Shown piece after piece: positions 17,568-46,597 of a DNA stretch of 64,000 nucleotides. Made by a program: the position numbers and the translations under genes. Below the pieces are notes generated by a model, which made no database searches, was not told the origin of the DNA, and worked only from the letters and a program-made list of their open reading frames with translations. Numbering within the stretch: position 1 is the stretch's first letter; each line of letters starts with the position of its first letter. The DNA is from Myxococcales bacterium (GTDB lineage Bacteria; Myxococcota; UBA727; VGSZ01). The DNA lies in contig JAHFED010000003.1 in assembly GCA_023248635.1 (NCBI GenBank), positions 1 to 64,000 on the forward strand, given 5' to 3'.

Positions 17568-19547
17568 TCACCAGCCGCATTTCTGTGATTTGTTTTGCTC
17601 CTTCAACCATTTCTGCAGCGGCGCGAAGTAGTCGAGCAAGGGCGCCGCATCCATCTGCGTCCCCCCGGTCAGCTTCTGCAGGGCCTCGGGCCAGGGCTTC
17701 GACGCGCCCATGGCGAGCATGTCGCTGAGCTTCTTGCCGGCGGCCTTGTTGCCCGCCACCGAGCAGCTGTGCAGGGGCCCTTTGTAGCCAGCGGCGTCAC
17801 ACATGGCCTTGTGGAACTGGAACTGGAGAATGCGCGCGAGGAAGTAGCGCGCGTAGGGAACGTTGGCCGGAATGTGGTACTTGGCGCCCGGATCAAAGGC
17901 ATTCACTGGACGCGCCGATGCCGGCTCGATGCCCTGATACTTCTTTCGCAGGTTCCACCATGACTTATTGTACTCCGACGACTTGGTCTTGCCGTTGAAG
18001 ACGTCCCATCGCCATTTGTCCATCAGATAGCCGAAGGGAAGAAATGCGACCTTATCGAGGGCGTCCTTCATCTGCAAATTGATCAGGGCCTTCTCGTTGT
18101 TCGGCACGTCCTTGAGGATCCCCAGCTGGTTCAAATAAGTAGGGTTCACGGAGAGAGCGACGGCGTCGCCGATGGCTTCGTGAAACCCGTCATGGGCGCC
18201 CTGTTGAAAGAGCACCGGCTTGTCGTTGTAATACTGATAGTAGTAGATATGCCCCAGCTCATGGTGGACTGTGATCAGGTTGTCTTCGTCGACCTGTATG
18301 CACATCTTGATGCGCACATCATTCGCATATGTCACATCCCACGCCGACGCATGACACACGACCTCACGATCCCTTGGCTTGGTCAACATCGATCGAGTCC
18401 AAAAAGTCTCAGGGAGCCTCTTGAGACCGAGGTTGACAAAGAAGTCCTCGCCCATGTGTGCGACCTTGGCTTCGTCGACGCCCTTGGCCTTCAAGGCCGC
18501 CGTGACATCGAGGCTGCCCTCGCCGGGGTAGGGCTCGATCAGCGGATAGACGTTGGCCCACTCTTGCGCCCACATGTTGCCCAGCAGGTGCGCCGGGATG
18601 GGGCCGCTGTTTTTCACCTTGCCCTCGTACCGGGCGGCGAGCTTGGCGCGCACATAGCAGTGGAGGTCTTCGTACAGGGGTTTCACCTGGCCCCAGAGCC
18701 GCTCCATCTCGGCCTCGAATTGCGCCGGCGTCATGTCGTAGCGCGACTTCCACAGGGCGCCGGTGTCAGCGAAGCCGAGGTTGACAGAGCCTTCGTTGGC
18801 GAGGCTGACGTACTTTTGAAAGAGCGGCTGAATCTCCGGACTGATGGTGTGCCAGCCATTCCAGGCGTCCAGCAGCGCATCGTAGTTGCGGCTCGACGAC
18901 ATCACGTTCGTCAGCTGTTCGAGGTCCCGGCAGTGCGGGGCCTTCTTCGCTAGGCCCGTGGCGGCCTCGAGTCTGGCGGCGTCGGCCTGCCCCACGGCCG
19001 CCTTGAGACCCGCATCCTCAGGCGCTGCAACCGACGCCGCCGTCGCCGTAGCCAACGCGGCCTTGGCCTCTTCGAGGTCCGAGGGCTTCCAGGCCCGGCA
19101 GTACTTTCCCTTGCCATAAAGCGAGGTCATCTGGCTCGCGATTTTGGCGAGCTCTGCCGTTTTGGCTGCATCATTGGGCGCCGGAAGATCGGCGGAAATC
19201 TTCAGCAAATGGATCGCGCGATCCGTGTCGGCATCTAAGGTGAGACCATCGAATTGTGTCGCTTCCTTGATGGCCTTTGCAGTGTACACCATGACCTTCT
19301 CAGCAGCGTCGGCCGTTAGAATTTCGGTGTCCTCGGTGATGTAGGTGCTCTTGACCCAGTCCGCGCGCGCGGCGTCGGTGTAGAGCTTCTTGAGGTCGTC
19401 GTTGACGCGTTGGACGAAGGCCTTGGCGTCGGCCGGTGTCGGCTTGGCCGCAGCAGCGACGGGTGCCTTGGAGTCAGCGGGTGCAGCGAGGGCGACGTTT
19501 CCCAGCAGAAGAACGCCAGCAGCAGCGAGGAGGAAGGGCTTGGTCAT
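17568..19547 (-). CDS. M2-family (ACE-like) peptidyl-dipeptidase
   Basis: The 659-aa exported zinc metallopeptidase has signal peptide MTKPFLLAAAGVLLLGNVALA. The zinc motif HHELGHIYYYQYY lies near residue 428, followed by the downstream Glu ligand in GFHEAIGDAVALS. C-terminal family segments such as YHIPANVPYARYFLARILQFQFHKAMC are present. M2 enzymes remove C-terminal dipeptides (angiotensin-converting enzyme is the animal member); in bacteria they are usually periplasmic or secreted. Length fits the bacterial members. Codons around 18220-18330 are unusually AT-rich, including the Tyr run after the zinc motif. It is the first gene of a likely two-gene unit with the lytic transglycosylase. Confidence 0.92.
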   Translation of the reverse strand: MTKPFLLAAAGVLLLGNVALAAPADSKAPVAAAAKPTPADAKAFVQRVNDDLKKLYTDAARADWVKSTYITEDTEILTADAAEKVMVYTAKAIKEATQFDGLTLDADTDRAIHLLKISADLPAPNDAAKTAELAKIASQMTSLYGKGKYCRAWKPSDLEEAKAALATATAASVAAPEDAGLKAAVGQADAARLEAATGLAKKAPHCRDLEQLTNVMSSSRNYDALLDAWNGWHTISPEIQPLFQKYVSLANEGSVNLGFADTGALWKSRYDMTPAQFEAEMERLWGQVKPLYEDLHCYVRAKLAARYEGKVKNSGPIPAHLLGNMWAQEWANVYPLIEPYPGEGSLDVTAALKAKGVDEAKVAHMGEDFFVNLGLKRLPETFWTRSMLTKPRDREVVCHASAWDVTYANDVRIKMCIQVDEDNLITVHHELGHIYYYQYYNDKPVLFQQGAHDGFHEAIGDAVALSVNPTYLNQLGILKDVPNNEKALINLQMKDALDKVAFLPFGYLMDKWRWDVFNGKTKSSEYNKSWWNLRKKYQGIEPASARPVNAFDPGAKYHIPANVPYARYFLARILQFQFHKAMCDAAGYKGPLHSCSVAGNKAAGKKLSDMLAMGASKPWPEALQKLTGGTQMDAAPLLDYFAPLQKWLKEQNKSQKCGW

Positions 19548-32171: not shown

Positions 32172-33554
32172 GTGAGCGACCCTGACGACCAAGAGAACGC
32201 GAAACCAGAGGCGCCGACGTCCTCGCGCTTTGCTCGCTTCGCCCGCATGTCGAGCCTCACCGCGGGTGTGGCTGCGCGCCATCTGGGCCAGAAGGTGGCC
32301 TCGGCCTTTCGCGACGACCACAGCCAAGAGAAAGCCGAGAAGGTGTCGCAGCTGAAGTCAGCAACGCAGATCACCAAAACCCTCGGCGAGCTCAAGGGCG
32401 CCGCCATGAAGCTCGGCCAGATGCTGGCCACCGACCCCGAGCTCTTGCCCAAAGAGATGGTCGAGGAGCTGCAGAAGCTCCAGCACTCAGCACCAGCCAT
32501 GCCCTTTGCCGTCGTGAAGCAGGTCATCGAAGAGGCTCTGCACCAACCCCTCGACGACGTCTTTGACGACTTCGGCGAGCGACCCATCGGCGCTGCCAGC
32601 ATCGGCCAGGTCCACCGGGCGCGCACCAAAGACGGCGCCGACGTCGCCATCAAAGTCCAATACCCGGGCATCGCCGACACCATCGTCTCCGACATGAAAA
32701 ACCTCGGCGGCCTGCTCTCGCTGGCGCGGGCCCAACTGCCCAAAGAGCGGGTCGACGCCTACCTCGACGAAGTCACATCGGTGATCCAGGCGGAGTCGAA
32801 CTACCTCAAAGAAGCCGAGAATCTCGAACGCTTTCAAGTGGTGCTCAAGAATCTCCCGGGAGTGCGCGTGCCGACGCCGGTGCACGAGCTGACCCGCAAG
32901 AACGTGTTGGTGATGGAGTACCTCTCGGGCCAGAAGATCGAGACCTGGCTCGAGACCGCACGCGCGGAGGACAAAGCCGAGCAGGGCAAGCGTCTCCTCG
33001 AGGTCTTTCTGCAGACCATCCACCGGCACCACGTGCTGCACGCCGATCCCCATCCGGGCAATTTCCTGATCCTCGACCAAGTCGAAGCCGTCGGCGGCGT
33101 ACCCGTGCTCGGCATCCTCGACTGCGGCTGCGTCCGCGAGTACGAGAGCGTATTTTGCGATGACCTGATCGCACTTCTCGTTACCCTGTGGAAGCACGAT
33201 CTCGACGCCATGCAAATCGCCTGGCGCCGCTTGGGATTCATGGACAAGGGCGTCGACGCCGACGACGTCTATGAGTGGTGCCAGCTCATTCTCGCGCCCA
33301 TGCTGCGCGACGAGGTCTGGGACTTCGGCGCTTGGAAGATCCAAGAAGAGGCCTTCGCCTTCGTCCTCGCGCACCCCAGGGTGAAGCTCTGGGCTCCTCC
33401 GCGCGAGGTGCTCTTCTACATCCGCACGCTGGCGGGCCTGCGCGGCCTGCTGAGCAAGACCGGCCTGAAGCTCAACGCCTACCGCCTGAGCCGCGCGATG
33501 GCCGAGGAGCGCGGCCAGCTGAAGAAGGCCACAGGTGATCCCCGATCTCGCTGA
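32172..33554 (+). CDS. ABC1/AarF/UbiB-family atypical kinase
   Basis: The 460-aa product carries the ABC1 family signatures: the KxGQ motif in GAAMKLGQMLATDPELLP, PIGAASIGQVHRARTKDG (Ala-rich loop replacing the P-loop), DVAIKVQYPG (Lys), the EXD-like region with EAENLERFQ, HADPHPGNFLI (catalytic loop) and LGILDCGCVRE (metal Asp). Members act as ATPases that support ubiquinone or isoprenoid-lipid metabolism; the exact role here is unknown. A GTG start follows an AGGAGG-like site. The last codons and stop (33536-33554) lie inside the structured repeat, so the tail DPRSR was probably supplied by repeat insertion. Confidence 0.88.
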   Translation: MSDPDDQENAKPEAPTSSRFARFARMSSLTAGVAARHLGQKVASAFRDDHSQEKAEKVSQLKSATQITKTLGELKGAAMKLGQMLATDPELLPKEMVEELQKLQHSAPAMPFAVVKQVIEEALHQPLDDVFDDFGERPIGAASIGQVHRARTKDGADVAIKVQYPGIADTIVSDMKNLGGLLSLARAQLPKERVDAYLDEVTSVIQAESNYLKEAENLERFQVVLKNLPGVRVPTPVHELTRKNVLVMEYLSGQKIETWLETARAEDKAEQGKRLLEVFLQTIHRHHVLHADPHPGNFLILDQVEAVGGVPVLGILDCGCVREYESVFCDDLIALLVTLWKHDLDAMQIAWRRLGFMDKGVDADDVYEWCQLILAPMLRDEVWDFGAWKIQEEAFAFVLAHPRVKLWAPPREVLFYIRTLAGLRGLLSKTGLKLNAYRLSRAMAEERGQLKKATGDPRSR

Positions 33555-33750
33555 ACTTCGACCGCGGAGCGGTCTCGTTCATCTCCCTCGGGGATGGTCT
33601 TCTGGGAGGTCTGGTGCAGACCTCCCCCCGCGCCGGCAGCGCCGGACGCGGGCCCCCCCACCAACTCCGCGTTCCGCGGGCGCGCTTCACGCGCACCATC
33701 CCGCATCTTTCCCATCTCGGAACGCGGTCGAACATCAAGCGGACGCGGGA
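33536..33750. repeat. Structured dispersed repeat, copy B
   Basis: A 215-bp copy of the element at 3233-3448, immediately followed by copy C. It holds GGAGGTCTG/CAGACCTCC and CCGCGTTCCG/CGGAACGCGG arms like copy A. Its left end overlaps the 3' end of the ABC1-kinase gene and provides that gene's stop codon. Confidence 0.85.
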
Positions 33751-33969
33751 TGATCCCCGATCTCGGGGAACTTCGACCGCGGAGCGGTCTCGTTCATCTC
33801 CCTCGGGGATGCTCTTCTGGGAGGTCTGGTGCAGACCTCCCCCCGCGCCGGCAGAGCCGGACGCGGGCCCCCACCAACTCCGCGTTCCGCGGGCGCGCTT
33901 CACGCGCATCACCCCGCGTCCTTCCCAACTCGGAACGCGGTCGAACATCAAGCGGACCCGGGATGAGTC
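33751..33969. repeat. Structured dispersed repeat, copy C
   Basis: A 219-bp copy in tandem with copy B and nearly identical to it, with differences mainly in unpaired positions. It ends eight bases before the stop of the minus-strand transglutaminase-like gene. As at copy A, the pair separates two convergent genes. Confidence 0.85.
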
Positions 33970-33976
33970 GACGTCG

Positions 33977-34936
33977 TCAAGGGGCCGGACGGCCCGGGGG
34001 CACCGAGCTTCGCGGCCCCGGCCTCACCACGCGGAAGTTGGCCAGCTGATCGATGGGCGGCATCGGCTTGAGGGGGGCAAAGAGGGCGCGCACCGGAATC
34101 CAGTAGATCGGGTACGCCGCGACGCTCAGCGTGCAGCCATACATCGACGGCGACGACGTGCTCCCGGGCAGCCTCTTGTCCCGTGCTTGGGATCCGCCCG
34201 GCCGGGTGAGGTCGTCGAGAAAGAAGCCGTGGAAATTCCGGTTGTAGCTGTCGACGACGATCTTTCTGCCGTGCTCGTCGACGGCGAGGGCGACGGCGTG
34301 GTCTTCGGCGCGCCCACCTTGGGCGGCCTGGCAGTACAGGTACTCGCTGTCGACGCCCGCCTCGAGGAGCGCCAGATGGGTCAGCAACGCATTCTCGCGG
34401 CACACGCCAGCGCCCTGCATCAGGTAGTCACCGAGCGTGACGTTGGTGCGCTGCTGGCGGTTGTCGGCGAGGAGCTTCAGGTAGGCCGGCGCATCGTAGG
34501 CCCCCTGCGTGAGCGTCTTTTGCACCAGCGCGACGACGCCATTCACTTTGTCCTCGAGGGACTTGCCGCTGACGTTGAGCGCCCGTGCCTGGGAGAGCAG
34601 TGCCTTGAGGCGGGGATGCTGGAGGTCGATGACGTAGTTGGGCTGCAGTCCGCCGAAGTCGACGCTGCCTTCGATGATCGAGCCATGGTTGAGCCGCACA
34701 CTGCGGCCGCTGACCTGGCGATAGACCACGCGTTTGTCGCGGGGATCGTTGCTGGCAAGATCCTGGGAGGTCTGGGGCGGTGCAGCACCCCTCAGTTGGC
34801 CAAGACGCGCGTCGCGCACCAGCTCACTGGCATCGAACAAGCCCGCCTGGCCCACAGCCGAAAGAGGCGTCGTCGTCGTCGTCGACGTCGCCGGCGTGCC
34901 AAAGAGCAGGCGGAAGGGATTCCAAGAGACGGGCAC
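33977..34936 (-). CDS. Transglutaminase-like protein
   Basis: The 319-aa product has a Cys-His-Asp arrangement typical of the transglutaminase or papain-like fold. Cys lies in QGAGVCRENALLTHLALLEAG, His in EDHAVALAVDEHG and Asp in KIVVDSYNRNFHG. The N-terminal 100 residues have no recognised domain, and there is no clear signal peptide. The C-terminus is Pro/Arg-rich. Bacterial members act as peptidases or crosslinking enzymes; the substrate here is unknown. It is the last gene of the cytochrome cluster, 12 bases after the cNMP-ferredoxin gene. Co-transcription is likely but a role in electron transfer is not shown. Confidence 0.7.
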   Translation of the reverse strand: MPVSWNPFRLLFGTPATSTTTTTPLSAVGQAGLFDASELVRDARLGQLRGAAPPQTSQDLASNDPRDKRVVYRQVSGRSVRLNHGSIIEGSVDFGGLQPNYVIDLQHPRLKALLSQARALNVSGKSLEDKVNGVVALVQKTLTQGAYDAPAYLKLLADNRQQRTNVTLGDYLMQGAGVCRENALLTHLALLEAGVDSEYLYCQAAQGGRAEDHAVALAVDEHGRKIVVDSYNRNFHGFFLDDLTRPGGSQARDKRLPGSTSSPSMYGCTLSVAAYPIYWIPVRALFAPLKPMPPIDQLANFRVVRPGPRSSVPPGRPAP

Positions 34937-34948
34937 GCCGGTACGGGC

Positions 34949-36397
34949 TCAGCGCTTGGCCATCGAGACGATGTCTGGTGCTGCTCCCCCGCGGTGCAGC
35001 TCGTCGAAGTACTCGTTGGGATCGATGCGGACGATGGCGCCCTGGGGGCAGTTGTAGACGCAATTGGGCGCTTCGTAGCCGCGGCAGATGTCACATTTTG
35101 AAGCCTTCCGCTGCGGTTTTGCTGCCTTCTTATCGCCCACGATCACCATCGAAATATTGCCGAACTCGCAGGCCTTGGCGCAGCCGCCGCAGCCGACGCA
35201 GTGGTCCTTGATGTAGACCTCGCCTTCTTTGTCGCGGGCGATGCTGCCGACGGGACAGGGCGCCATGCAGTCGGGCGTGCGGCAGTGCAGACAGGAATTG
35301 GGGAAGAAGAGGTTCTGCAATTTGCCGGTGGACTTCTCACGACGTGTGAGCTTTTTGCCGCGACGAATCAAGCGCGAATAACCATTGTGCAAATCGGTGC
35401 AAGCTTGCACGCAGTTGCCGCAACGCACGCACGAGTCCATGTCGATGATCAGGGCCGAACGGGCCTGGGCGACGCCGAGACCGATGAGATCGGCCGTAAA
35501 CATCATGCCGGTCTTTGAGCCCGTCGCTGGTCCGCCGCCGCCGCCGCCGCCCGCGCGGGCGTCGAGGTCGTAGCGCCGGTACGCCTGGATGACCTGGGGG
35601 TAGCGTTGGTAGAGGCCGGCAAAGACCGAGCGCGGAATCTCGATGATCTCGACGGGCTCCATGGCGGTGACCGTGGCCGTGCGTGGACGGCCGTCGACGA
35701 GCTCGAGGTCGCCGAAGAAGTCCTTGTCCCTCAGGTAGGCGAGGATGCTCTCGTCCTCGCCCTCTGTGCGCCAGGCCTTCAAGAAGCCTTGGCGCACCAG
35801 ATAGAACGACGTCGCCGCCGCCCCCGCCTTGTAGATGTCGGCCATGGCCTCAAAGCGCAGCAGCTTGGCGGCCTCGATCATCAGCTTCTTGTCGGCGTCG
35901 GAGATGTCCCGGAGGAACTCGTTGTCGCGGATGAACTTCTCGACGTTCTTGCGCGCGTAGATCTCCTCGAGCTGCTTCTTCAACCCACCGGTTTTGTCCT
36001 CCTTCAACATGCGATCGAAGGGACCCTTGTAGATCTCGAGCACCTGGCAGTTGGGTGTCACGGCCTTGATGCTGGCGGTGCGCATGCCGCGACCAATCAT
36101 GGCGAGCTCGCCGAAGTACGCGCCCCGCTGAATCGAGGCCACCTGCACGGGAATGCCCTGATCATTCCATACTTCGACAGCGAAGGTCCCGTTCAACACA
36201 ACATAAAAAGTATCGCCGAATTCACCCTCTCGAATAACAAAGTCACCGATGGGCAGATCGACCACCGACGCCGGCTGCTCGGCTTGCGGGATCTTGCCCA
36301 TGATGAGCTTGTCGCGGATGACGGCGTCGGTGAGCATGCTGAGAAACGGGATCTGCTTCACCAGCAGCGTCCACTCGTCGGCCATTTGCGCGCTCAT
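34949..36397 (-). CDS. Two cyclic-nucleotide-binding domains fused to a four-cluster ferredoxin
   Basis: The 482-aa cytoplasmic protein has two CRP-like cNMP-binding domains: about 30-150 (DFVIREGEFGDTFYVVLNG, YFGELAMIG) and 160-275 (SFYLVRQG, FFGDLELVDGRPRTATV). A Gly-rich linker (about 285-292) leads to a C-terminal iron-sulfur domain of the DmsB/NrfC type. Cys motifs there are CVRCGNCVQACTD, CLHCRTPDCMAPCP, CVGCGGCAKACEFG and CDICRGYEAPNCVYNCP, enough for four 4Fe-4S clusters. Each cNMP domain has the RxAxV-type end of the phosphate-binding cassette. This joins a second-messenger sensor to an electron carrier, so electron flow into the neighbouring cytochromes may be gated by cAMP, cGMP or a related ligand. 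A 195-base gap separates it from the 15-heme gene upstream. Confidence 0.88.
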   Translation of the reverse strand: MSAQMADEWTLLVKQIPFLSMLTDAVIRDKLIMGKIPQAEQPASVVDLPIGDFVIREGEFGDTFYVVLNGTFAVEVWNDQGIPVQVASIQRGAYFGELAMIGRGMRTASIKAVTPNCQVLEIYKGPFDRMLKEDKTGGLKKQLEEIYARKNVEKFIRDNEFLRDISDADKKLMIEAAKLLRFEAMADIYKAGAAATSFYLVRQGFLKAWRTEGEDESILAYLRDKDFFGDLELVDGRPRTATVTAMEPVEIIEIPRSVFAGLYQRYPQVIQAYRRYDLDARAGGGGGGGPATGSKTGMMFTADLIGLGVAQARSALIIDMDSCVRCGNCVQACTDLHNGYSRLIRRGKKLTRREKSTGKLQNLFFPNSCLHCRTPDCMAPCPVGSIARDKEGEVYIKDHCVGCGGCAKACEFGNISMVIVGDKKAAKPQRKASKCDICRGYEAPNCVYNCPQGAIVRIDPNEYFDELHRGGAAPDIVSMAKR

Positions 36398-36592
36398 AGT
36401 TGACCCTTCACAAAAACCTCAAAACGAAGCGAAGCCAGATCGGGAACCAAGACATAGCACCACCGCGCCCCAGCAGCAGCCCGCGCCTCAATCGCTCCTG
36501 CTGCACACAGCGTCGAGCGCGTACGAGGAGCAGGGGCGCCACCGAAGGTGACTCCGCCGTCTCAGCAGCAGCGGACCTCTGCTGCACCGGGC
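36398..36592 (-). other. Gap upstream of the cNMP-ferredoxin gene
   Basis: The 195-base gap has no gene. On the minus strand it contains GCAGCA/TGCTGC arms near 36565-36590, just after the stop of the 15-heme gene, which could form a hairpin. It leaves room for a separate promoter for the cNMP-ferredoxin gene. Confidence 0.3.
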
Positions 36593-38842
36593 CTATTTTT
36601 GGACGGCTGTGTGGCAGCGGGAGCAGGTCTGCTCGAACTTGTGGCATGTCAGGCAGGCCCCGAGCTCGAGGCGACCCCGCGAGCTGTGGAGGCCCTTCTC
36701 GACCCACACATTGAGCGGGAAGTGGCTCTTGGGGATTTCTCGGTGGCAGCTCTCGCAGCGCTCAGCGCGATGGCAGGTCGTGCAACGCGCAGGATCGACC
36801 TGGGCGGTGCGGCCGTGCACGCGATCCCGGAAGCCAGCGGTGTGATCCCGGGGCTTCATGGTGGCGTGGCAGGTGTCGCAGCGGTTGCCGTCGTTGGGAT
36901 CGGCGCCCTTGTGGCAAGAGGCGCACATTGGCGCGTTTTCCTGCGCCGCCGTGGCGTGATGACGACGGAAAAACGCCGTGTGGTCGATGGGCTTGGCGGT
37001 CACGATGAGCTCGTTTTGCGGCATGTGCCCCTGGCGCTGTTGCAGGTGGCAGTCGACGCAGCGCTCCGGGGGCTGCAGGCCGACGGCGTTGGCCTGGCGA
37101 TGACACTCCATGCAGCCCTGCATCTTGACCTTGGAGATCGCTTCCTTGGTTTCGGCTTCGTAGGCGTCGGCGTGACAGGCGCGGCAATCGATGCTGGGTC
37201 CAGGTCCACCAGGAACGCCACCGGCACCAAAAGTCGCATGGGTCATATGCGTGAAGAACACGTCGCCGACGCGGCCGAAGGGGCGAATGAGGTGGTTGCG
37301 GAGGTAGCGCGAGCGTTCGGGCGACAGCGGCTCTTCTTCCACAGACCCAGAGTGGCACACGGTGCACGACAGGCCGCTCGGGTCGCCAGCGACGTAGGGA
37401 GGGATGCTCCCCTGGGTGTGGCAAGCGGAACAGGCCTCATGACCCTGGGTCGCGATGCCAAGAGGACGGTCGGGCTCCTGCATGTGACAGATGGTGCAAT
37501 CGATCTGGTTCTCGCCCACGTGCAGCTTGTGGTTCATCTTGAAGGGCAGGCGCTTGAGCTGCCCTTTGCGCAGCGCCGGCGGCATGACCTCTGCCTGGCG
37601 ATGACAGAGCAAGCAGTTCGCCTGCGACGGCGGCTTGGTGGCGAAGCCATTGGGATCGGAGTGCTCGTGGCAGGTCAGGCAGCCGACGGGCTTGCCGGCG
37701 ACCGTCAGCGGCGCGTGCAACCCGTGGGAGAAGCCCGTGAGCGTGGCCAGCTTGCTGGTCACCGGCATGCCCTCGGCACCCGGCATCACCGTGGGCGGCG
37801 TGCCCATGATCGGCGGCGGCGTGACGACGGCGACCGGCGGCGTGACGACGGCGACCGGAGGCGTGACGACGGCAACGGGCGGCGTGGCGACGGGAGCGGT
37901 AGCGACGACGGCAGCGCGGACGGCCCCGAGGGTCACGAGGTAGGCGAGCACGTTTTCGAATTGATCGGGGGCGACATCGTGGCGGCCCCCCACGGCGGGT
38001 TTGAGCGGCCCAGGCAACGACTTGCCGGCGAGGGCTGGGCCGACGCCCTTGTTGCCACCGGGATGGCACTTATTGCACTTGGCCTGCCAGTAGACGGCGC
38101 CCTTGGCAGCGTCGCCGGCGGTGGCGGTGGCGACGGCGACGGCGGGCGGGGTTTCGCCGACGGGGGGAGCGACGACGGCAACGGGTGGGGTTGCCACAGC
38201 GAGCGGCGGCGTCACGACGGCAACAGGCGGCGTCACGACGGCAACGGGTGGGGTCACCACAGCGACCGGCGGCGGGGTCGCCCCACCGCGCGGCTCGAGA
38301 CCGACCAGCGGCACATAGGTCTTGCCACCGAGCTTGCCGCCGTCGGCGACACCGTTGTAGCGGCGGATGCGCGCACCCAGGTTGGCGTCGCCCAGGTACA
38401 AATCGGCGATCTCTTCGGCTTTGCGACCGTTGGTGCGCACCTCGATCTCGGCAAACACGCTCAGGACCTGGCCGGGCTTCAGCTTCGCCGTCGCCGCAAG
38501 TCCGTTGGCCTCGGCCAGCAGGGCCGCGCCGCCGTCGCCGGAGAAGAAGCGATCGGCCACCTTCTGCATCGTCTCACCGTCAGCAACGGTGTGGATGGTG
38601 GTGCCCGGGATCTTGAGGAAGGCGCCGTCGGCGGGTTGTTCGCCGTCGTTGATCTTGTTCGCCGCGCGGATGACGGCGGCCTTTCGGGCGTCGCCGTACA
38701 GGCGCTCGGCCATCGCCTCGACGGTCTCGCCACCTTCGGCCTTGATGCGAATGGTCGCCAGCGACGCCGAGGCAACGACACCGAGCAGGGCGGCGACGAG
38801 GACGGGCCACAAGGTGCGGACAGGCCGGAGAAATCGGCTCAC
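36593..38842 (-). CDS. 15-heme c-type cytochrome with LysM-like and Pro-rich regions
   Basis: The 749-aa exported cytochrome has a signal sequence (MSRFLRPVRTLWPVLVAALLGVVASA) and three LysM-like repeats (about 30-190; for example GETVEAMAERLYGDARKAAV and GETMQKVADRFFSGDG). A Pro-Val repeat linker follows, then one mono-heme cytochrome c domain (CNKCHPGGNKGVGPALAG), a second Pro-Val linker, and a multiheme domain of 14 CXXCH motifs (CLTCH to CSRCH). In all 15 CXXCH motifs were counted. The many His outside the motifs would give bis-His ligation. LysM-like modules suggest anchoring to peptidoglycan, so it may carry electrons across the periplasm to the outer-membrane barrel. It lies 71 bases downstream of the 9-heme gene. 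Confidence 0.88.
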   Translation of the reverse strand: MSRFLRPVRTLWPVLVAALLGVVASASLATIRIKAEGGETVEAMAERLYGDARKAAVIRAANKINDGEQPADGAFLKIPGTTIHTVADGETMQKVADRFFSGDGGAALLAEANGLAATAKLKPGQVLSVFAEIEVRTNGRKAEEIADLYLGDANLGARIRRYNGVADGGKLGGKTYVPLVGLEPRGGATPPPVAVVTPPVAVVTPPVAVVTPPLAVATPPVAVVAPPVGETPPAVAVATATAGDAAKGAVYWQAKCNKCHPGGNKGVGPALAGKSLPGPLKPAVGGRHDVAPDQFENVLAYLVTLGAVRAAVVATAPVATPPVAVVTPPVAVVTPPVAVVTPPPIMGTPPTVMPGAEGMPVTSKLATLTGFSHGLHAPLTVAGKPVGCLTCHEHSDPNGFATKPPSQANCLLCHRQAEVMPPALRKGQLKRLPFKMNHKLHVGENQIDCTICHMQEPDRPLGIATQGHEACSACHTQGSIPPYVAGDPSGLSCTVCHSGSVEEEPLSPERSRYLRNHLIRPFGRVGDVFFTHMTHATFGAGGVPGGPGPSIDCRACHADAYEAETKEAISKVKMQGCMECHRQANAVGLQPPERCVDCHLQQRQGHMPQNELIVTAKPIDHTAFFRRHHATAAQENAPMCASCHKGADPNDGNRCDTCHATMKPRDHTAGFRDRVHGRTAQVDPARCTTCHRAERCESCHREIPKSHFPLNVWVEKGLHSSRGRLELGACLTCHKFEQTCSRCHTAVQK
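37818..37900 (-). repeat. 21-bp minisatellite coding TPPVAVV (second linker)
   Basis: Near-identical 21-bp units encode Thr-Pro-Pro-Val-Ala-Val-Val repeats in the 15-heme cytochrome. They form the linker between the mono-heme and multiheme domains. A second block lies at 38161-38280. Confidence 0.8.
38161..38280 (-). repeat. 21-bp minisatellite coding TPPVAVV (first linker)
   Basis: Five or six 21-bp units of the same type encode the linker between the LysM-like part and the mono-heme domain of the 15-heme cytochrome. Copy number and thus linker length may vary. Confidence 0.8.
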
Positions 38843-38912
38843 AGGTGCACTCCCAGCAGAGGACGAGAAATGAGGTTTCGGTGTCGACGATCTCGAGAGA
38901 CCAGCGCGTGAA

Positions 38913-39845
38913 TCACTGGATGCCGCCGGCCGGTGCGGACTCCGTCGGGTGTCCCGGGGGCAAGGGCACGCCCTGGATGCTGCCCGCGAGGTGGCACTTC
39001 AGACAGGAGGAGAAATGGAAGGCGCCCGAGCCGTTGACGCCGGGGATGGTGGGGTGCGGCTTGCTCGGATCCGATCCGTCGTGGCACTGGACGCAGGCCA
39101 CCATCGGCGGCGCGGCGATGCTGCGCAACGTCGTCGCTTGGGTGGTGTTGATGTGGCACTGCGTGCACTCCGTCGACTTGCCGTTGCGCGAGTCGGTGTT
39201 GTGCAACTTGTGGCTGAAGTCGTGAATCTTCGACGGCGGCCTTCCTGCGTTTTTCGAAGCCGAGTGGCAGGCTTCGCAGTTGTTCATCTGCGGGACCATC
39301 TCGGCGGCGACGTGGCACTCGCAGCAGTTGGGGTGGCTCGGGTGCGCGACCCGCTCGCCGCCCTTGATGAAGGCATGACACTTGGTGCAGGCGGTGCCGT
39401 CGTGGCTTTTGTGGCTGAATTCAGCGCGGCGCGGCGTCACTTGACGAGTGAGTTCTTTGAGTGGGTTGTTCGCTGAGAATGCCGTGTTCTTATGACAGTT
39501 GGTGCAGATGGTCAGCGGCGGCGTGTAGAAATTCGCGGTGTGGCAGCCGGCGCAGGCCTCGTGCTTGGGGAAGCGCACCTCGGTCTTGGGGCACTGCCCG
39601 TTGGCGGCGACCATCTCGTGACAGGTGCCGCAAGACATGGCCTTGCCGACCTTGTCTGGGTTCATGTGGTGGTCGTGCGAAAAGGGGCTCGACGTGTCCA
39701 TGACTTGCTGCGCGACCTTGCCCTGGGCTTCGGCGGGTTCGGCGCCGAAGGTCGAGAAAAGGCCGATGCCGACGAGCCCAACGGCGACGACGGCAGACAT
39801 CAGGGCAACGCGGACGGGGGAGGGAGCAAGATGCGAGCGGTTCAC
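38913..39845 (-). CDS. Nine-heme periplasmic c-type cytochrome
   Basis: The 310-aa exported protein has a signal peptide (hydrophobic VALMSAVVAVGLVGIGLFS, cleavage after AEA) and nine CXXCH motifs: CGTCH, CAGCH, CTNCH, CTKCH, CCECH, CEACH, CTQCH, CVQCH and CLKCH. Repeating FSHxxH segments (SPFSHDHHMN, AEFSHKSHDG, HDFSHKLHN) supply distal His ligands in the manner of cytochrome c3/c7-type multiheme proteins. It probably works as a periplasmic shuttle to the 15-heme cytochrome or outer-membrane complex. GTG at 39845 with GAGAGG upstream is chosen over a TTG 24 bases earlier. It lies 80 bases after the barrel gene. Confidence 0.9.
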   Translation of the reverse strand: MNRSHLAPSPVRVALMSAVVAVGLVGIGLFSTFGAEPAEAQGKVAQQVMDTSSPFSHDHHMNPDKVGKAMSCGTCHEMVAANGQCPKTEVRFPKHEACAGCHTANFYTPPLTICTNCHKNTAFSANNPLKELTRQVTPRRAEFSHKSHDGTACTKCHAFIKGGERVAHPSHPNCCECHVAAEMVPQMNNCEACHSASKNAGRPPSKIHDFSHKLHNTDSRNGKSTECTQCHINTTQATTLRSIAAPPMVACVQCHDGSDPSKPHPTIPGVNGSGAFHFSSCLKCHLAGSIQGVPLPPGHPTESAPAGGIQ

Positions 39846-39925
39846 GGTGGCCTCTCGGGGCTTTCGCAATCAATCGGACGGAAACAACAACAAGGGGGAC
39901 GAGCAGGGAGCGCTGGGCGCAGGCG

Positions 39926-41716
39926 TCAGAAGCGGACGGAGGTGCCTACGAGGGCGCCGAGGTAGTAGCTGGCGTTCAAGGTGTCGATGGGCGTGAGCGC
40001 ATCGGCGTCGAAGCGCACATTCACCTGCCACCAGTCGAGGACGTCGTAGCGGGTCGTCGTCGCCACCGCGCCGCCCCATTGGCCGTTGCCGGTGAGGCCC
40101 TTGGTTTGGATGTCCTGGCGGCGAACGAAGACCTCGCTGAGGTTCGACAGCTTTCCTTCAAGCAAGGTGCTGCGGATCCACATGCGGGGCTCGACGTAGC
40201 TGACGACGCCTTCGGCCTTGAGGTCGTAGGCGAGCCCGTTTTGCAAACCGGAGTCGACGAAGCCGCCGACGAGATCGGTGCCGACGTCGAAGGCGAAGCC
40301 CGGGTTCCAGCTCACGCCGGCGCCAGCCTCGTAGAAATTCGTGCGGAAGGCGTCGAGGTCGGCGGGATCGAAGTGTTGGCGCAAACGTCCACGCAGGGTC
40401 ACCTGGAACGAGGCCGGTAGCTGGCGTTCGACCTCGCCACTCAAGTAGATGTGCTCTTGCGGCGGCCCGAAGTTCAAGTGGCGAATCTGATCGCGGGCCC
40501 TCAGCTGCTCCTGCTCGTCGGCGGTCGCCTGGTTGAAGATGTCAGCGGGATTGAAGGCCCGGAAGGTGCCGTCGTAGGCCGTGATGTCCTCGGCGAACTG
40601 CAGGCGAGAAACGACCTCGACGCGGGTGGTGCCGTCGCCGGTGAGCGCGTCGCCGCGCAAGCTGACATTGCGGGGGATGAAATCGGTGGCCTTGGTGTCA
40701 AGAGCGACGTCGGCCAGCAGGAAGTCCGAGTCGAAGCGGTAGGAAACACCCAGGGTGCTGCGCTGCATCGGCAGGAGGTCAGCGCCCGACAAGGTCTGGG
40801 CCGGCATCAAGCTGTGGTTGAGCACGAAGCCGAAGCCGGCGAAGCGTCCGTCGATCGCCAGGCCGCCCACAGGATTCAAGATGGGATCGACGATGGCGGT
40901 GCGGGTGGTGATGAACGCCCCCGGATTGGCGAAGAACTCGGGATCCTCGGCATAGGTTTCGGCGTAGGCGCGGTTGCTGGTGCGGCTGAAGGGGTCGTTG
41001 GCCAGCCGCTGGGGCGCATCGAGCCCACCCCAGACCTTGGCGTTCAGGTGGCCGAGCCCCGCAAATTTCAGCTGGGCCCCGAGGGAAGCACCGTCGTAGG
41101 TGATCGGGCTTTCGACGATCTCGGTCATGCGTCCCAGGTAGACCTTGACCGGCTGCAGCCCGGGCTCGGCCGACGTGCCCGAGAGGCCGACAAAGGCCGA
41201 GTAGAGGCGCATGCGCGGCGCCACGCTTTGATCATCCAGATAAGGGCTGACCGGCGAATCACCGCCGACGTCGGCGCCGAAGTCACCGAAGCCGTCGAAC
41301 ACGATCGGGATGCCAACGGGGCGGTCGTAGCCGAAGATCACGGTGCCAGCGACGTCGAGGTCGTTGCGATCGAGGACCTTGTCGTCGACGTCGAGGCGCA
41401 CCGGCGGATCGGGCAGTCCCGCGGCGCCAAAACGAGTGCCGAGATCGGCGCGGAAGCGCAGTCCCCGCTTCACCGTGTCCATGGTGGTCGGCACCACGGA
41501 GGCATCGAGCGGAGGAGCAGTCGCCACCGCCGGCGACGGAGCGGGGGTCGTCGTCGGTGCCGGGGTCGCTGCCGGCGTCGGAGTTTCAGCGGGCGCCTGG
41601 GCTCGGGCTGCTGGCACCAGCACGCAGCCGAAGATCGACATCGCCACGGAGAGCGGAAGGCGCCGACGACGACGCCAAAGATCAGGCCAAGGATCAGGGT
41701 TGCGCAGTGGAGTCAC
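39926..41716 (-). CDS. Outer-membrane barrel of a likely porin-cytochrome complex
   Basis: The 596-aa protein starts with a basic n-region (WRRRRRLPLS) and hydrophobic segment ending AARAQA, followed by a Pro/Thr/Ala-rich linker of about 35 residues. The rest alternates like a large beta-barrel and ends in a terminal Phe (YYLGALVGTSVRF). No heme motif is present. Its place between a multiheme lipoprotein gene and periplasmic multiheme genes is the order seen in porin-cytochrome conduits (MtrCAB; OmbB-OmaB-OmcB), so it probably forms the channel through the outer membrane. GTG at 41716 follows AGAGGG and is preferred over an ATG-like start 90 bases upstream, which adds a leader unlike a signal peptide. 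Confidence 0.75.
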   Translation of the reverse strand: MTPLRNPDPWPDLWRRRRRLPLSVAMSIFGCVLVPAARAQAPAETPTPAATPAPTTTPAPSPAVATAPPLDASVVPTTMDTVKRGLRFRADLGTRFGAAGLPDPPVRLDVDDKVLDRNDLDVAGTVIFGYDRPVGIPIVFDGFGDFGADVGGDSPVSPYLDDQSVAPRMRLYSAFVGLSGTSAEPGLQPVKVYLGRMTEIVESPITYDGASLGAQLKFAGLGHLNAKVWGGLDAPQRLANDPFSRTSNRAYAETYAEDPEFFANPGAFITTRTAIVDPILNPVGGLAIDGRFAGFGFVLNHSLMPAQTLSGADLLPMQRSTLGVSYRFDSDFLLADVALDTKATDFIPRNVSLRGDALTGDGTTRVEVVSRLQFAEDITAYDGTFRAFNPADIFNQATADEQEQLRARDQIRHLNFGPPQEHIYLSGEVERQLPASFQVTLRGRLRQHFDPADLDAFRTNFYEAGAGVSWNPGFAFDVGTDLVGGFVDSGLQNGLAYDLKAEGVVSYVEPRMWIRSTLLEGKLSNLSEVFVRRQDIQTKGLTGNGQWGGAVATTTRYDVLDWWQVNVRFDADALTPIDTLNASYYLGALVGTSVRF

Positions 41717-41902
41717 GAAGCCCTCTTTCTCTGTCCGCACGGTCCGGGGGGGAGACTCGCCCAAGGTCGACCACGACGGCAACTTGTTCTGCAGCCCGAG
41801 CAACATCGCGGCGCGGCGCGGAGGCTTGGGCCTGAACGAAAACGGCGCCGGCCGCGAAGCCGACGCCGTCTACCGCCGCTGAGCCGGCTCATGGTGCTTC
41901 CG

Positions 41903-44900
41903 TCAGGGCAAGACCGTGCCAGGAATGCAGCGTTGGGTCGTGGCGTCGACGGCCACGTCCCCTTCGTCGCCATCTCGCACAATGCAGCCGACACCGTCGC
42001 CGCGAGAGTCCTTGGTGTTGGCGACTTCCTTCACGACCACCGAGCGCATGCGGGCGATGGTGCGTTGCTCCAGCGGGTGCGCACCGATGGCCCAAGAATC
42101 ACGCATGCGCCGGCCGCCCTTGTCGGCGATGTTGTCGAGGCCCAGGCCCCGGGCGAGGGCGACGACGCCACCGCTGGCCGGGAACACAAAGATGTTGCGG
42201 GTGGCGTTCTTCGGATCGAAGGGCGTCAGCGGATCGTTGCGCTCATGAGACAAGCGGAAGCCCCGGAAGGCGTCAGGGTTGTCGTCAGCCGCCTTCAACG
42301 CGAGGCGGAAGTCGATCACCGGCGTGATGTTGACCGCAAGAACGTTGGCTCCGTTGGCAACGATGGCAAAGGTGCGGGTCGGCACTTCGGCCATAACGAC
42401 GGCGGTGGCGTTGTTGATTTGTCCACCCCCCGGAATGTTCTGAATGGTCTCTTCGAGACGGGGATCCGCCGGCGTCGAGACGTCGAGGATCCGCAAGCCG
42501 TTGCGGCCGTCGGCGACGACGAGGCGGCTGCCCCACATCGCGACGCCGCGACTGTCGGCGGGTTGCTGCTGATCGATCAGGGCCCGCGCGATGGGCGCGA
42601 GGTTCACAGCTTGGGGCGTCAGATCCCCTCGCTGCTCGGTGAGGGGATAGACGACGGGGCCGACGTCGAAGATCTCGACGCCGCCTTCGCCGGTGGCGAC
42701 GTAGGCGAAGCGACCGTGGATGATGACGTCGAGCGCAGGGCGACGCGTCTCGAAGTTGGTGAGCTCGGCCAGCGGGGGACCAAGGTCGATGTCGGCAATC
42801 TTCGCCGCAGCCTCACGCTCACCAAGCGCGAAGACCGCAAGGCCCTGGGCGTGGGTGACGAAGGCAAAACGACCGTAGAGCCGAACCTTGGTCGCTCCAT
42901 CCAGACCGTGGGGCAAGGAGCCGACGACGACGGCACCTTGCTCGCCCGATCGGGCGCCGCCGTCGACGAAGTCGTTCTCGTCGACGTCCGGGTCGTTGCC
43001 GGCGTCGGGATCGAGCACGTTCAAGAAGCCGCCGTTTTGACCTGTGGCGTTGTTGAAATCGAGGGCGGCGCGGTAGTCGATGACCGCGATCTCTTCCTCG
43101 GTCAAGGCAATGAAGCAGGTGGTCTGCGAGGCACCGGTCTCGACGATGTCGACGCTGCGCACGGGTCCCAAGGTCTCCAAACGCACCAGCTCGACCGGAG
43201 GCATGCCGATCGCCGGGTTCTTGCCGCCGCCGATGCCGAAGTCGTTGTTGTCGCGGCCGAAGACGTCGATGACGGAGACGCCCTTGCCGTGCCCGATGAT
43301 GGCGACGTCGGTGACGTCACCGCTGCCATTTTCGAAGGAGACACCGCGCTGCAGGGCCACGTCGAAGGCCGGGTTGACGACCGCGGGGTTGGCATCGGTG
43401 TCGAGGTCGAAGGACACGCGGCGTCGCTTCTCGGCGCCGACATTGTTCTTGTCGGAGAAGTCGAAGCCCGGGAAGGTGACCCCGCCGACGGCCTCTTTCT
43501 TCATGTCCAGCAGGTCGAGGCCAGCGCCGGTGGCGGCGACCACCCAGTCGCCGACATTTTGGTAGCGGCCGGTGCCCTGGGCGGTGGCCTCGGTGATCAA
43601 ATGATCATTGGCGACGTTGCCGGCGGCGTCTTCGAGGGTGTGGCAGCGCACGCACTGCTTGGTCTCGACGGTGCGCACGGTGTGCGGGAAATAGGCATTG
43701 GAGACCAGCGACGACAGGTTCGCCTTCGTCGAAAACACGGCGCTCTCGGCCAGCTGAATGCCGCCGGCGACGACGGTGAGGTGCACCTGCATCGTCGAGC
43801 GGTGGGTCGCGATCTTGTTGCCCTCGGTGTTGCCGGCGTGGCCCAAGTAGAAGGGCGAGCGGGTGTAGCTGAAGAGCTGGAAGAACACGTCTTCGATGTC
43901 GTCGTCACCCCACCAGATCTCCTGCTTGGGCTTGGCGACGTCCATCTTGAGGTGGCAGCTCAAGCAGTTGGGCTGCCACGAGGAGTGGCAGGAATAACAC
44001 TCGAGGCCACCCTTCTCGTTGGGCTCGGCGATGTGCGAGAATTTTCGGTCGTAGCCGTTGCATGTGGTGCCATCCCACGAGCAGACGGCGGCGGCGCAGG
44101 TGTCTTCGGTCAAGAAGGGCGCGCACTGCTCGGTGCCGTGGTCGAGGGCCGGGTCGAAGGTCTCCAGCGGCTGGCGGTGGGCATAAGCCGAGGCGTTGTC
44201 CTTGGGAGCGGTCAACACGGGCACGAACCAGCCGAGGTTGGGATCGACGCGGCTGCGCTGAAAGACCTTGCCGTCGACGTTCTCGAACCAGGGCTTGCCG
44301 AAGGCGGTGTTGTAGCGGACGGCGGTCATGTCGTCGCCGCCGTTGGGGCCGGAGAACTTGAGCGCAGGAGGCGTGTCGTTGGTGCCGTGGCAGTCTTCGC
44401 ACTCGATCTGGATGGCGTCCCAGTTGCGCGTGTAGATCTGGCCGTCGCCGTGGACGTCGTTGCCGATGTGGCAGTCGACGCAGTTGAAGCCGCGCTCGAT
44501 GTGGATGTCCTGCAAGCGGACTGCGCCGTTGGCGCCGCCATAGATGATGCGGTTCTGGCGGCCGTCGAAGGCGTCGGAGCGGCGCACGCGATCGGGGATG
44601 TCGAGGGCGCCGTTGCCGTTGACGTCTTCGTTGATGACGACGTCGTCGCCGTCGAGGACGCCGTTTTTGTTGAGGTCTTCGTTGGGCTGCAGGATGCCGT
44701 CGCCGTTGAGGTCGCTCTCGACCAGCGCAGTCTCGAGCTCGCCGTTGTTGTTCAGATCTTCACTGAGACCTTCGCCGTCGTTGAGAATGCGGCCGTTTTT
44801 GTAATGGGCGAGGTTGTCGAAGATGCGGACGTTGTTTCCGCTCGGCGCTTGGTACTCGAAGGTGCCGATGGTGTTGATGGTCTCGAGGTTGGTGAAGTCG

Positions 44901-46597
44901 GTCTCCTGCTCGTAGGAGCCGATCATGGACACGTCGATGCGCGTGACGAAACCATGGCAAGCGCCGCAGGCCTCGGTCTTCACCGTGCGCTTGATCTCGT
45001 GGCGCTTGGCGTAGGCGTGCTGGCCCAGATCCTGGCGAATGCCGAAGGGCAGGTCCGTCGACGGACTCTTGCCGTTGTCGGCGACGGTGCGGTCGATGGG
45101 TTCCTGGTTCTTGCCGTCCTTGGCGTACTCGATGTGGCAAGCGGTGCAGCCCGAGGGACGACCCCGCCCGAAGGGGTTGTTCTTGTTGCGCAGCTCGGTG
45201 TCGGAGGCATCGCTGGGGGGCGCATCGTTGGCGTTGGGCGAGGTAAAGAAGTCGACGAAGCCGAAGTTGTCCGAGGGGCCCCACCAGTTGACGGAGTGGT
45301 AGGCACGGAAGTTCCGCAAGGCTGCGTCGGCGGGGTTGGTGATGGGCTGGTTGTCGAAGAGGTTGACGATGGTGGTGTTGCGGTCGTCGATGAAGCCGGC
45401 GCCGACGACGGGCACCGCCGAGATCATGCGGGCGAGGCGCAGCTGCAGGCCCTTGTTCTGGACCTTGTCGGGCCACACGCGGCCACCGGTCGCGTCGCCG
45501 TCGCTGGCGTTGCCGCCTCGGTTGCTGATGCTCTGCAGCACCTCGACGGCGCGGTTGTTGGCGGCCTCGGGAGAGTCGAGGTCGTCGACGTAGAACTTGT
45601 AGCGCTGGCCGGTGCGGGTGGTGCCCAGGCCGCCCGGGGGAGCGAACTTGCCGTCGCTGCCGCTCTTGCCGTCGGCGAAGATGGCGCCTTCGGTGGCCTC
45701 GAACTTGTTGTCTTCCTCGTCGACGTTGGTGCCCGCCGCCGCCGCGAGCTTCTCCCGATCGAAGCCGCCACCGCCGATGAGATTCTGCTTCTCGTCTTTG
45801 AGCTCGGGATCGAAGGCCTCGTCGATGGCGGTGAAGTCGATGACGTAGCCGACGTGACCGACCCGGGGGTTGCGCAGGTCGTAGCGGCGCCCCGCGTCCG
45901 ACGCCGCGAAGGCTTGGCCGAAGTCGATGGCCTTGGGCAGCTGGGCGTTGCCGTAGGTCGCTGCGCTGGGGACGGTGCCGAAGCTGCTCATGATCGAGCG
46001 GCGCATGTCGTAGACGACCTCGGCATGGCAGATCATGGCGTCGTTGGAGCTCTTGTTGCGGCTGCCACACGAAGCCTCAGCAACGCGCAGGTCACCAGGG
46101 TTCAGCCAGCGCAGGTAGTTCATGTCCCGGTTGATCTCCGAGTCCATCTGGGCCTTGTTGGCGAGGCGCTTGTCAGCCGTGGCGGTGGCCGTCTCGACCT
46201 TGGCGCGGCCGTCAAAGAACTCGCCGGACTCGTCGACCTGGTTGTCGCCGTCGTCGTCGATGCCGTTGGGCCACCACATGGTGGAGTCGTTGGGCAGCAC
46301 GTGGCTGAGCTTGAGCAGGGCCTGATCGCGGATGTTGAGCTGGGCCGGCAGCGCGACCTGGTCGTTGCCGCCATGGCAGTCGACGCAGGCGAGGCCGAAG
46401 AAGGGGTGCACGTCGGTGATGCCTTCATGGCAGCCGAGGCAGGACCCACCCAGGGGAGCCTGGGTTTGGATGATCTTCTCGCTGCATCCAGCGGACGTGA
46501 CGGCGACGATGGCGCCAGCCGTGATGGCCAGAACCCAGGGGGCTGCGGAGGGGCCGGAGGGGGTTGACGTCGCGGCAGGCCTTTTCGGCTCAAACAT
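41903..46597 (-). CDS. Giant multiheme cytochrome lipoprotein with Ca-binding repeats and a propeller-like region
   Basis: The 1564-aa product has lipobox TSAGC (Cys38). Nine CXXCH motifs are counted: CLGCH, CVDCH, CTACH, CGACH, CVDCH, CEDCH, CYSCH, CLSCH, CVRCH. One atypical CX12CH pair (46025-46069) is also present. Between hemes lie Asp/Asn/Gly loops like EF-hand or dockerin calcium sites (DLNNNGELE, DLNGDGILQPNEDLNKNG, DVNGNGALD). The last 600 residues are heme-free and hold LVIVD-like repeats (GRFAYVATGEGGVEIFDV, SRLVVADGRNGLRILDVS), suggesting a beta-propeller. Large cytochromes of this kind are often exposed on the outer membrane and contact external acceptors. It heads the cluster: barrel, 9-heme, 15-heme, cNMP-ferredoxin. 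ATG at 46597 has GGAG eight bases upstream. Confidence 0.88.
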   Translation of the reverse strand: MFEPKRPAATSTPSGPSAAPWVLAITAGAIVAVTSAGCSEKIIQTQAPLGGSCLGCHEGITDVHPFFGLACVDCHGGNDQVALPAQLNIRDQALLKLSHVLPNDSTMWWPNGIDDDGDNQVDESGEFFDGRAKVETATATADKRLANKAQMDSEINRDMNYLRWLNPGDLRVAEASCGSRNKSSNDAMICHAEVVYDMRRSIMSSFGTVPSAATYGNAQLPKAIDFGQAFAASDAGRRYDLRNPRVGHVGYVIDFTAIDEAFDPELKDEKQNLIGGGGFDREKLAAAAGTNVDEEDNKFEATEGAIFADGKSGSDGKFAPPGGLGTTRTGQRYKFYVDDLDSPEAANNRAVEVLQSISNRGGNASDGDATGGRVWPDKVQNKGLQLRLARMISAVPVVGAGFIDDRNTTIVNLFDNQPITNPADAALRNFRAYHSVNWWGPSDNFGFVDFFTSPNANDAPPSDASDTELRNKNNPFGRGRPSGCTACHIEYAKDGKNQEPIDRTVADNGKSPSTDLPFGIRQDLGQHAYAKRHEIKRTVKTEACGACHGFVTRIDVSMIGSYEQETDFTNLETINTIGTFEYQAPSGNNVRIFDNLAHYKNGRILNDGEGLSEDLNNNGELETALVESDLNGDGILQPNEDLNKNGVLDGDDVVINEDVNGNGALDIPDRVRRSDAFDGRQNRIIYGGANGAVRLQDIHIERGFNCVDCHIGNDVHGDGQIYTRNWDAIQIECEDCHGTNDTPPALKFSGPNGGDDMTAVRYNTAFGKPWFENVDGKVFQRSRVDPNLGWFVPVLTAPKDNASAYAHRQPLETFDPALDHGTEQCAPFLTEDTCAAAVCSWDGTTCNGYDRKFSHIAEPNEKGGLECYSCHSSWQPNCLSCHLKMDVAKPKQEIWWGDDDIEDVFFQLFSYTRSPFYLGHAGNTEGNKIATHRSTMQVHLTVVAGGIQLAESAVFSTKANLSSLVSNAYFPHTVRTVETKQCVRCHTLEDAAGNVANDHLITEATAQGTGRYQNVGDWVVAATGAGLDLLDMKKEAVGGVTFPGFDFSDKNNVGAEKRRRVSFDLDTDANPAVVNPAFDVALQRGVSFENGSGDVTDVAIIGHGKGVSVIDVFGRDNNDFGIGGGKNPAIGMPPVELVRLETLGPVRSVDIVETGASQTTCFIALTEEEIAVIDYRAALDFNNATGQNGGFLNVLDPDAGNDPDVDENDFVDGGARSGEQGAVVVGSLPHGLDGATKVRLYGRFAFVTHAQGLAVFALGEREAAAKIADIDLGPPLAELTNFETRRPALDVIIHGRFAYVATGEGGVEIFDVGPVVYPLTEQRGDLTPQAVNLAPIARALIDQQQPADSRGVAMWGSRLVVADGRNGLRILDVSTPADPRLEETIQNIPGGGQINNATAVVMAEVPTRTFAIVANGANVLAVNITPVIDFRLALKAADDNPDAFRGFRLSHERNDPLTPFDPKNATRNIFVFPASGGVVALARGLGLDNIADKGGRRMRDSWAIGAHPLEQRTIARMRSVVVKEVANTKDSRGDGVGCIVRDGDEGDVAVDATTQRCIPGTVLP

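Follow-up and report, generated by a model that had tools for sequence, protein, structure and literature searches.

Does the run of six genes at positions 33977-46597 of the window (the whole 64-kb stretch of DNA analysed here) encode a conduit that carries electrons across the cell envelope, and which of its cytochromes would then work with the barrel? A sequence-only reading had proposed six same-strand genes for a giant lipidated cytochrome, a barrel, two periplasmic cytochromes (c9 and c15), a cNMP-ferredoxin and a transglutaminase-like protein, and had joined them into a porin-cytochrome conduit. The inventory was confirmed, as positions, strand, heme motifs and Pfam domains agree. All six genes lie on the minus strand in the order just given, with CXXCH counts of 9, 0, 9, 15, 0 and 0, and their GC pattern marks the six ORFs as real genes; no further cytochrome genes were called within the 64-kb window. 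The likely starts of the giant, the barrel and c9 were assigned from conservation in relatives. We consider it probable that these genes account for most of an electron conduit across the cell envelope, of the porin-cytochrome type. Its features are as follows.

41903..46597, minus strand: giant ExtM-like, putative surface lipoprotein, 1564 aa, nine CXXCH motifs and one CX12CH; ATG at 46597
46025..46069, minus strand: atypical CX12CH heme site of the giant (residues 177-191), aligning with canonical CXXCH of relatives
44594..44779, minus strand: four Asp/Asn-Gly calcium-type loops of the giant (residues 614-663), from a pattern search
41906..43600, minus strand: C-terminal propeller-like region of the giant, with an LVIVD repeat (Pfam PF08309, 3.3e-8)
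39926..41806, minus strand: predicted outer-membrane beta-barrel (porin subunit), likelier start GTG 41716; strand pattern z 3.5; no family match
38913..39869, minus strand: nine-heme periplasmic cytochrome c9, 318 aa, nine CXXCH; likelier start GTG 39845
36593..38842, minus strand: LysM and 15-heme periplasmic cytochrome c15, the strongest candidate for a cytochrome in the barrel or docked at it
38303..38755, minus strand: LysM-type peptidoglycan-binding region of c15 (Pfam LysM, 1.3e-6), aligned in relatives
37922..38113, minus strand: extra class I mono-heme domain within c15, present only in this species
34949..36397, minus strand: cNMP-ferredoxin, a cytoplasmic protein; two cNMP domains and motifs for four 4Fe-4S clusters (Pfam), phosphate-binding cassettes intact
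33977..34936, minus strand: accessory transglutaminase-like protein; DUF553 just above cut-off

The predicted barrel and its likely cytochrome partner

The putative barrel has a signal peptide, ~22-23 predicted amphipathic strands and a C-terminal Phe, and its strand pattern is at least as strong as that of a FadL protein in the same window. Searches against Pfam, NCBIfam and PDB sequences gave no match. AlphaFold2 runs on the barrel (4 alignment rows, pLDDT 28) and on c9 (5 alignment rows, pLDDT 37) were unusable; because the barrel fold is thus unmodelled, we treat both the fold and its insertion in the membrane as predictions. A profile built from the genus alone and run against 195 genomes of the phylum matched only the genus, plus one weak, stop-containing sequence. 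The conclusion that the barrel is not conserved outside the genus was nevertheless rejected as a misleading result of the genus-only profile, since following c15 uncovered barrels in another family (f7). There, two genomes encode a 515-516 aa barrel followed by a c15 orthologue, the barrel stop overlapping the c15 start by one base, and the c15 orthologues align over their full length, LysM and hemes included, at 33% identity (E 5e-59). The window barrel is homologous to these f7 barrels (z 10.3 for one, with 500 shuffles, and z 3.9 for the second; the controls, outer-membrane proteins with no relation to it, gave z < ~2), and a profile combining them has clear matches in exactly five genomes of the phylum, with a sixth match at the 0.01 limit. 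A likeness of the barrel to the protein at L168 (z 11.7) proved to be an artefact of a Pro/Ala-rich N-terminus; it fell to z 3.1 once this was trimmed and was not counted as homology.

The pairing extends well beyond these families. A non-heme ORF of 450-640 aa lies directly upstream in 13 of the 13 c15-type loci examined, most of these ORFs having the barrel pattern or a shared motif. Eight of the loci examined are distant ones, picked by their match to c15 and carrying c15-type heme arrays (11-13 CXXCH); all eight have such an ORF (454-637 aa), several overlapping by four bases. These upstream ORFs were judged by strand pattern and by the motif GR[M/L/Q/I/V]-x6-14-[Y/F]DG, which is found in most of them and is absent from that of L164. 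Among 329 proteins checked the motif occurs in 13, nearly all such barrels. In one f7 genome, a kinase and a PP2C gene stand directly behind the barrel-c15 pair. The neighbourhood comparison proposed with the sequence-only reading therefore came out in its favour, as barrel-cytochrome pairing is kept in a congener (G001, with all six genes in unchanged order), in f7 and at the eight further loci; nor was the barrel found to be a member of a transporter family drifting apart from cytochromes, since it matches no family and stays beside them in relatives. These data point to a recurring Myxococcota porin-cytochrome family, unnamed by the Pfam and NCBIfam models used, and offer a simple search recipe for more conduits, namely a c15-type cytochrome with an upstream barrel that carries the GR...DG motif.

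Which cytochrome partners the barrel is a separate matter. MtrA is of a size comparable to that of c9 (318 aa, nine hemes), and in the window c9 comes directly after the barrel; both points would suit an arrangement in which c9 sits inside the barrel and c15 serves as a periplasmic relay. We regard this arrangement as unlikely, because the f7 orthologues of c9 adjoin the genes of an inner-membrane module (a cNMP-FeS-cytochrome b fusion and an FHA-heptaheme protein) with no barrel alongside, because it is the barrel-c15 pairing that is kept, to the point of overlap in f7, and because the matches of the c9 profile are ActA-type cytochromes, with MtrA not among them. Among proteins of solved structure, those closest to c9 and to c15 alike are alternative complex III cytochromes rather than MtrA, which weighs against the conduit reading. 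Both proteins have signal-like N-termini, and Pfam finds LysM and c7 domains in c15. As judged from gene order, the LysM-bearing c15 is thus most likely the MtrA-like partner of the barrel, instead of c9; it is the best candidate because c15-type loci pair with upstream barrels, as in the Pcc clusters of Anaeromyxobacter. By its neighbours, c9 is assigned to the inner-membrane module. Of the conduit that had been proposed, the barrel beside cytochromes stands, whereas the barrel's likely partner is c15 rather than c9, and c9 and the cNMP-ferredoxin belong with the inner-membrane module.

The giant, a putative lipoprotein

Pfam identifies cytochrome c7 and the LVIVD propeller repeat in the giant; over the portion compared, it shares 72% identity with its G001 orthologue. 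The calcium-loop and propeller-like regions noticed earlier are both recovered, by pattern search and Pfam respectively, and the earlier estimate of at least nine hemes is matched by nine CXXCH motifs plus a likely tenth site. Lipidation is less clear-cut; a conserved Cys-Ser-Glu stands behind a signal-like stretch, but the lipobox of the window giant (TSAGC) is weak and atypical, the corresponding sequences being LVAC (canonical) in a giant paralogue and LSGC in a copy from Baikal.

A tenth heme at CX12CH is likely because the column C177-X12-C190-H aligns with a plain CGxCH in many relatives (alignment of 21 sequences, the window copy and 20 relatives). Within the giant family (L050, L048, L051, L052, L045), this one conserved heme site is spelled CX2CH, CX4CH, CX5CH, CX12CH or CX13CH. 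Atypical CX3-15CH motifs have been reported in Pcc outer cytochromes (PMC4245776), and heme 1 of OmcZ has a similar 14-residue loop that serves its subunit interface (PMC9473688); the spellings CX12CH and CX13CH were absent from the literature searched. A heme site whose cysteines are 2, 4, 5, 12 or 13 residues apart would provide a natural series for studying how well cytochrome c maturation tolerates long loops.

The cytochrome region of the giant is part of a wide family touched by the ExtM model, which matches stretches of the giant at 4e-26 and reaches up to 1e-63 in relatives, all below cut-off. A porin of the Geobacter ext gene cluster has been linked to the reduction of selenite and tellurite (PMC5877670), so that the giant could be a terminal oxyanion reductase (of, for example, selenite or tellurite) related to ExtM, with the conduit serving the giant and not minerals or partner cells. 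This seems improbable to us, as the giant scores 91 bits against an ExtM cut-off of 800, and Pfam and NCBIfam searches found no equivalents of ExtI, ExtKL or the Rieske protein ExtO here. A PDB sequence search with the giant gave no significant match.

We conclude that the giant is an ExtM-like, optional outer part of the conduit. The idea that it defines the system was rejected, since solo paralogues exist and the f7 barrel has no giant alongside. Second copies in G001 and in a further genome, G002, are 54-57% identical and solitary, with no barrel adjoining in the flanking sequence examined, and a third solitary copy lies on a 5-kb contig from Baikal, in a genome in whose examined sequence the barrel profile has no match. 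Because paralogues occur with no adjoining barrel, the giant may be able to work alone. These paralogues (L016, L038, L071) have nine CXXCH and the CX12CH, and no other cytochromes adjoin them in the flanking sequence examined. The barrel-side giant of G002 (L036:7512-10312) lacks ~650 residues in frame (six CXXCH gone) and then has a frameshift, through either gene decay or an assembly error. By title, the named relatives are MAGs of Myxococcales or Deltaproteobacteria from lakes, and we take all three sites to be lakes; the taxonomic placement draws on four titled contigs. Among known conduits it is common for the core to be conserved while the outer lipoprotein is exchanged (PMC6148476), and the limitation of the giant to part of the family fits this pattern.

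Relation to known conduits

By sequence, the system is probably of the porin-cytochrome kind, for which a three-element definition has been given (PMC6148476), and differs from MtrCAB, because no known family matches the barrel and searches of this genome and 58 relatives found no PF11854 (MtrB_PioB). It resembles MtrCAB and MtoAB in its predicted barrel, periplasmic multiheme subunit and putative surface decaheme lipoprotein; no subunit, however, scores above the cut-offs of the MtrA (DmsE) or MtrC/OmcA families (c9 reaches 17 bits against 192 for TIGR03508, and no TIGR03507 match is listed for the giant). With the Geobacter conduits OmbB-OmaB-OmcB, ExtABCD and ExtHIJKL(MNOPQS) it would share the three elements, and it shares an outer part swapped around a kept core and an ExtM-like giant (PMC6148476, PMC5877670); it departs from them in a giant that stays under the ExtM cut-off, a barrel with no ExtI-type porin match and a periplasmic subunit with LysM. 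In Anaeromyxobacter, two-gene Pcc clusters consist of a porin and a cytochrome of the periplasm, the latter with either 12 or 14 hemes (PMC4245776). By description these are similar, a porin gene adjoining a ~12-14-heme periplasmic cytochrome, and L162, where the cytochrome has 12 hemes in 359 aa and the barrel ORF overlaps, shows this layout; here, by contrast, the periplasmic cytochrome bears LysM domains, and the conduit comes with both a giant putative lipoprotein and an inner-membrane module. The periplasmic cytochromes of the Gallionellaceae PCC3 carry 21-27 hemes, and no cNMP, FHA or LysM parts are seen in the available portion of its description (PMC10734462). That the barrel is instead an ordinary solute porin, with cytochromes confined to a periplasmic or inner-membrane respiratory chain, would agree with its want of a fold model and a family match but is very unlikely, given its pairing with multiheme cytochromes in many families, the rarity of its motif elsewhere and the surface-type multiheme lipoprotein in the same gene run.

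The inner-membrane module and the proposed electron route

In G001 the six genes are part of one run of eight, the additional two, past the transglutaminase gene, encoding a membrane-integral protein and the FHA-heptaheme protein, in which Pfam recognises two FHA domains. At 21-27% identity the membrane protein retains two His pairs with a spacing of 14 residues, as known from diheme b cytochromes. A Pfam match of the cytochrome b to Cation_ATPase_C was below cut-off and was disregarded. A point against a single conduit locus is that, in the genome of the window, the genes for cytochrome b and the FHA-heptaheme protein lie away from the other six, on contigs C96 and C35. The f7 genomes have the set split in two, with barrel-c15 apart from c9 and the rest of the module, and there the cNMP, 4x[4Fe-4S] and diheme cytochrome b parts are joined in one protein, a Rosetta-stone fusion. 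The barrel, c9, full-length c15 and a strong cytochrome b occur in the same five of ~193 phylum genomes, with strong E-values; as the full set is confined to two lineages, this co-occurrence amounts to few independent events.

While the sequences establish the heme sites, domains, barrel-c15 pairing, co-occurrence and fusion, the physical path and order of parts are our proposal, as follows. Cytoplasmic electrons would enter the cNMP/[4Fe-4S]4 protein and pass to the diheme cytochrome b and then to the heptaheme domain that the FHA protein would have in the periplasm; the genes for these two lie on other contigs of this genome. The heptaheme domain would hand them to soluble c9, and c9 to c15, which would be held on peptidoglycan by LysM and would either sit inside the outer-membrane barrel or dock against it. 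From c15 and the barrel they would reach the giant decaheme surface lipoprotein and an extracellular partner, electrons being either given or taken. Through the cNMP and FHA domains of these carriers, second messengers or Ser/Thr phosphorylation may tune the flow. We speculate, and hold it only tentatively, that Myxococcota possess a full cytoplasm-to-surface route whose electron carriers double as ligand-binding proteins. The two cNMP domains of the Fe-S subunit would take up cyclic nucleotides and the two FHA domains of the heptaheme protein phosphothreonine, so that, with the barrel cytochrome tethered to peptidoglycan, signalling would directly gate the extracellular electron flow. On the evidence of this locus, some conduits may be fixed to the cell wall and connected to second-messenger or kinase signalling.

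Searches of viral contigs and plasmids gave no match. The cytochrome b gene of this genome (L118:8234-9184) lies tail-to-tail with a gene for an NAD-binding oxidoreductase (PF00175). A separate, widespread Myxococcota module (L120, L121, L125, L126, L128) combines a ~750-aa protein, cytochrome-b-like at one end, with adjacent cytochromes of 20-29 hemes. The accessory transglutaminase-like gene is present in G001 and was not seen at the G002 locus; in the window it is followed immediately downstream (33536-33966) by a ~214 bp tandem duplication with the near-palindrome GGGAGGTCTGGTGCAGACCTCCC in both copies. Elsewhere in the window, positions 17568-19547 encode a peptidase M2, angiotensin-converting-enzyme-like (E 2e-219).
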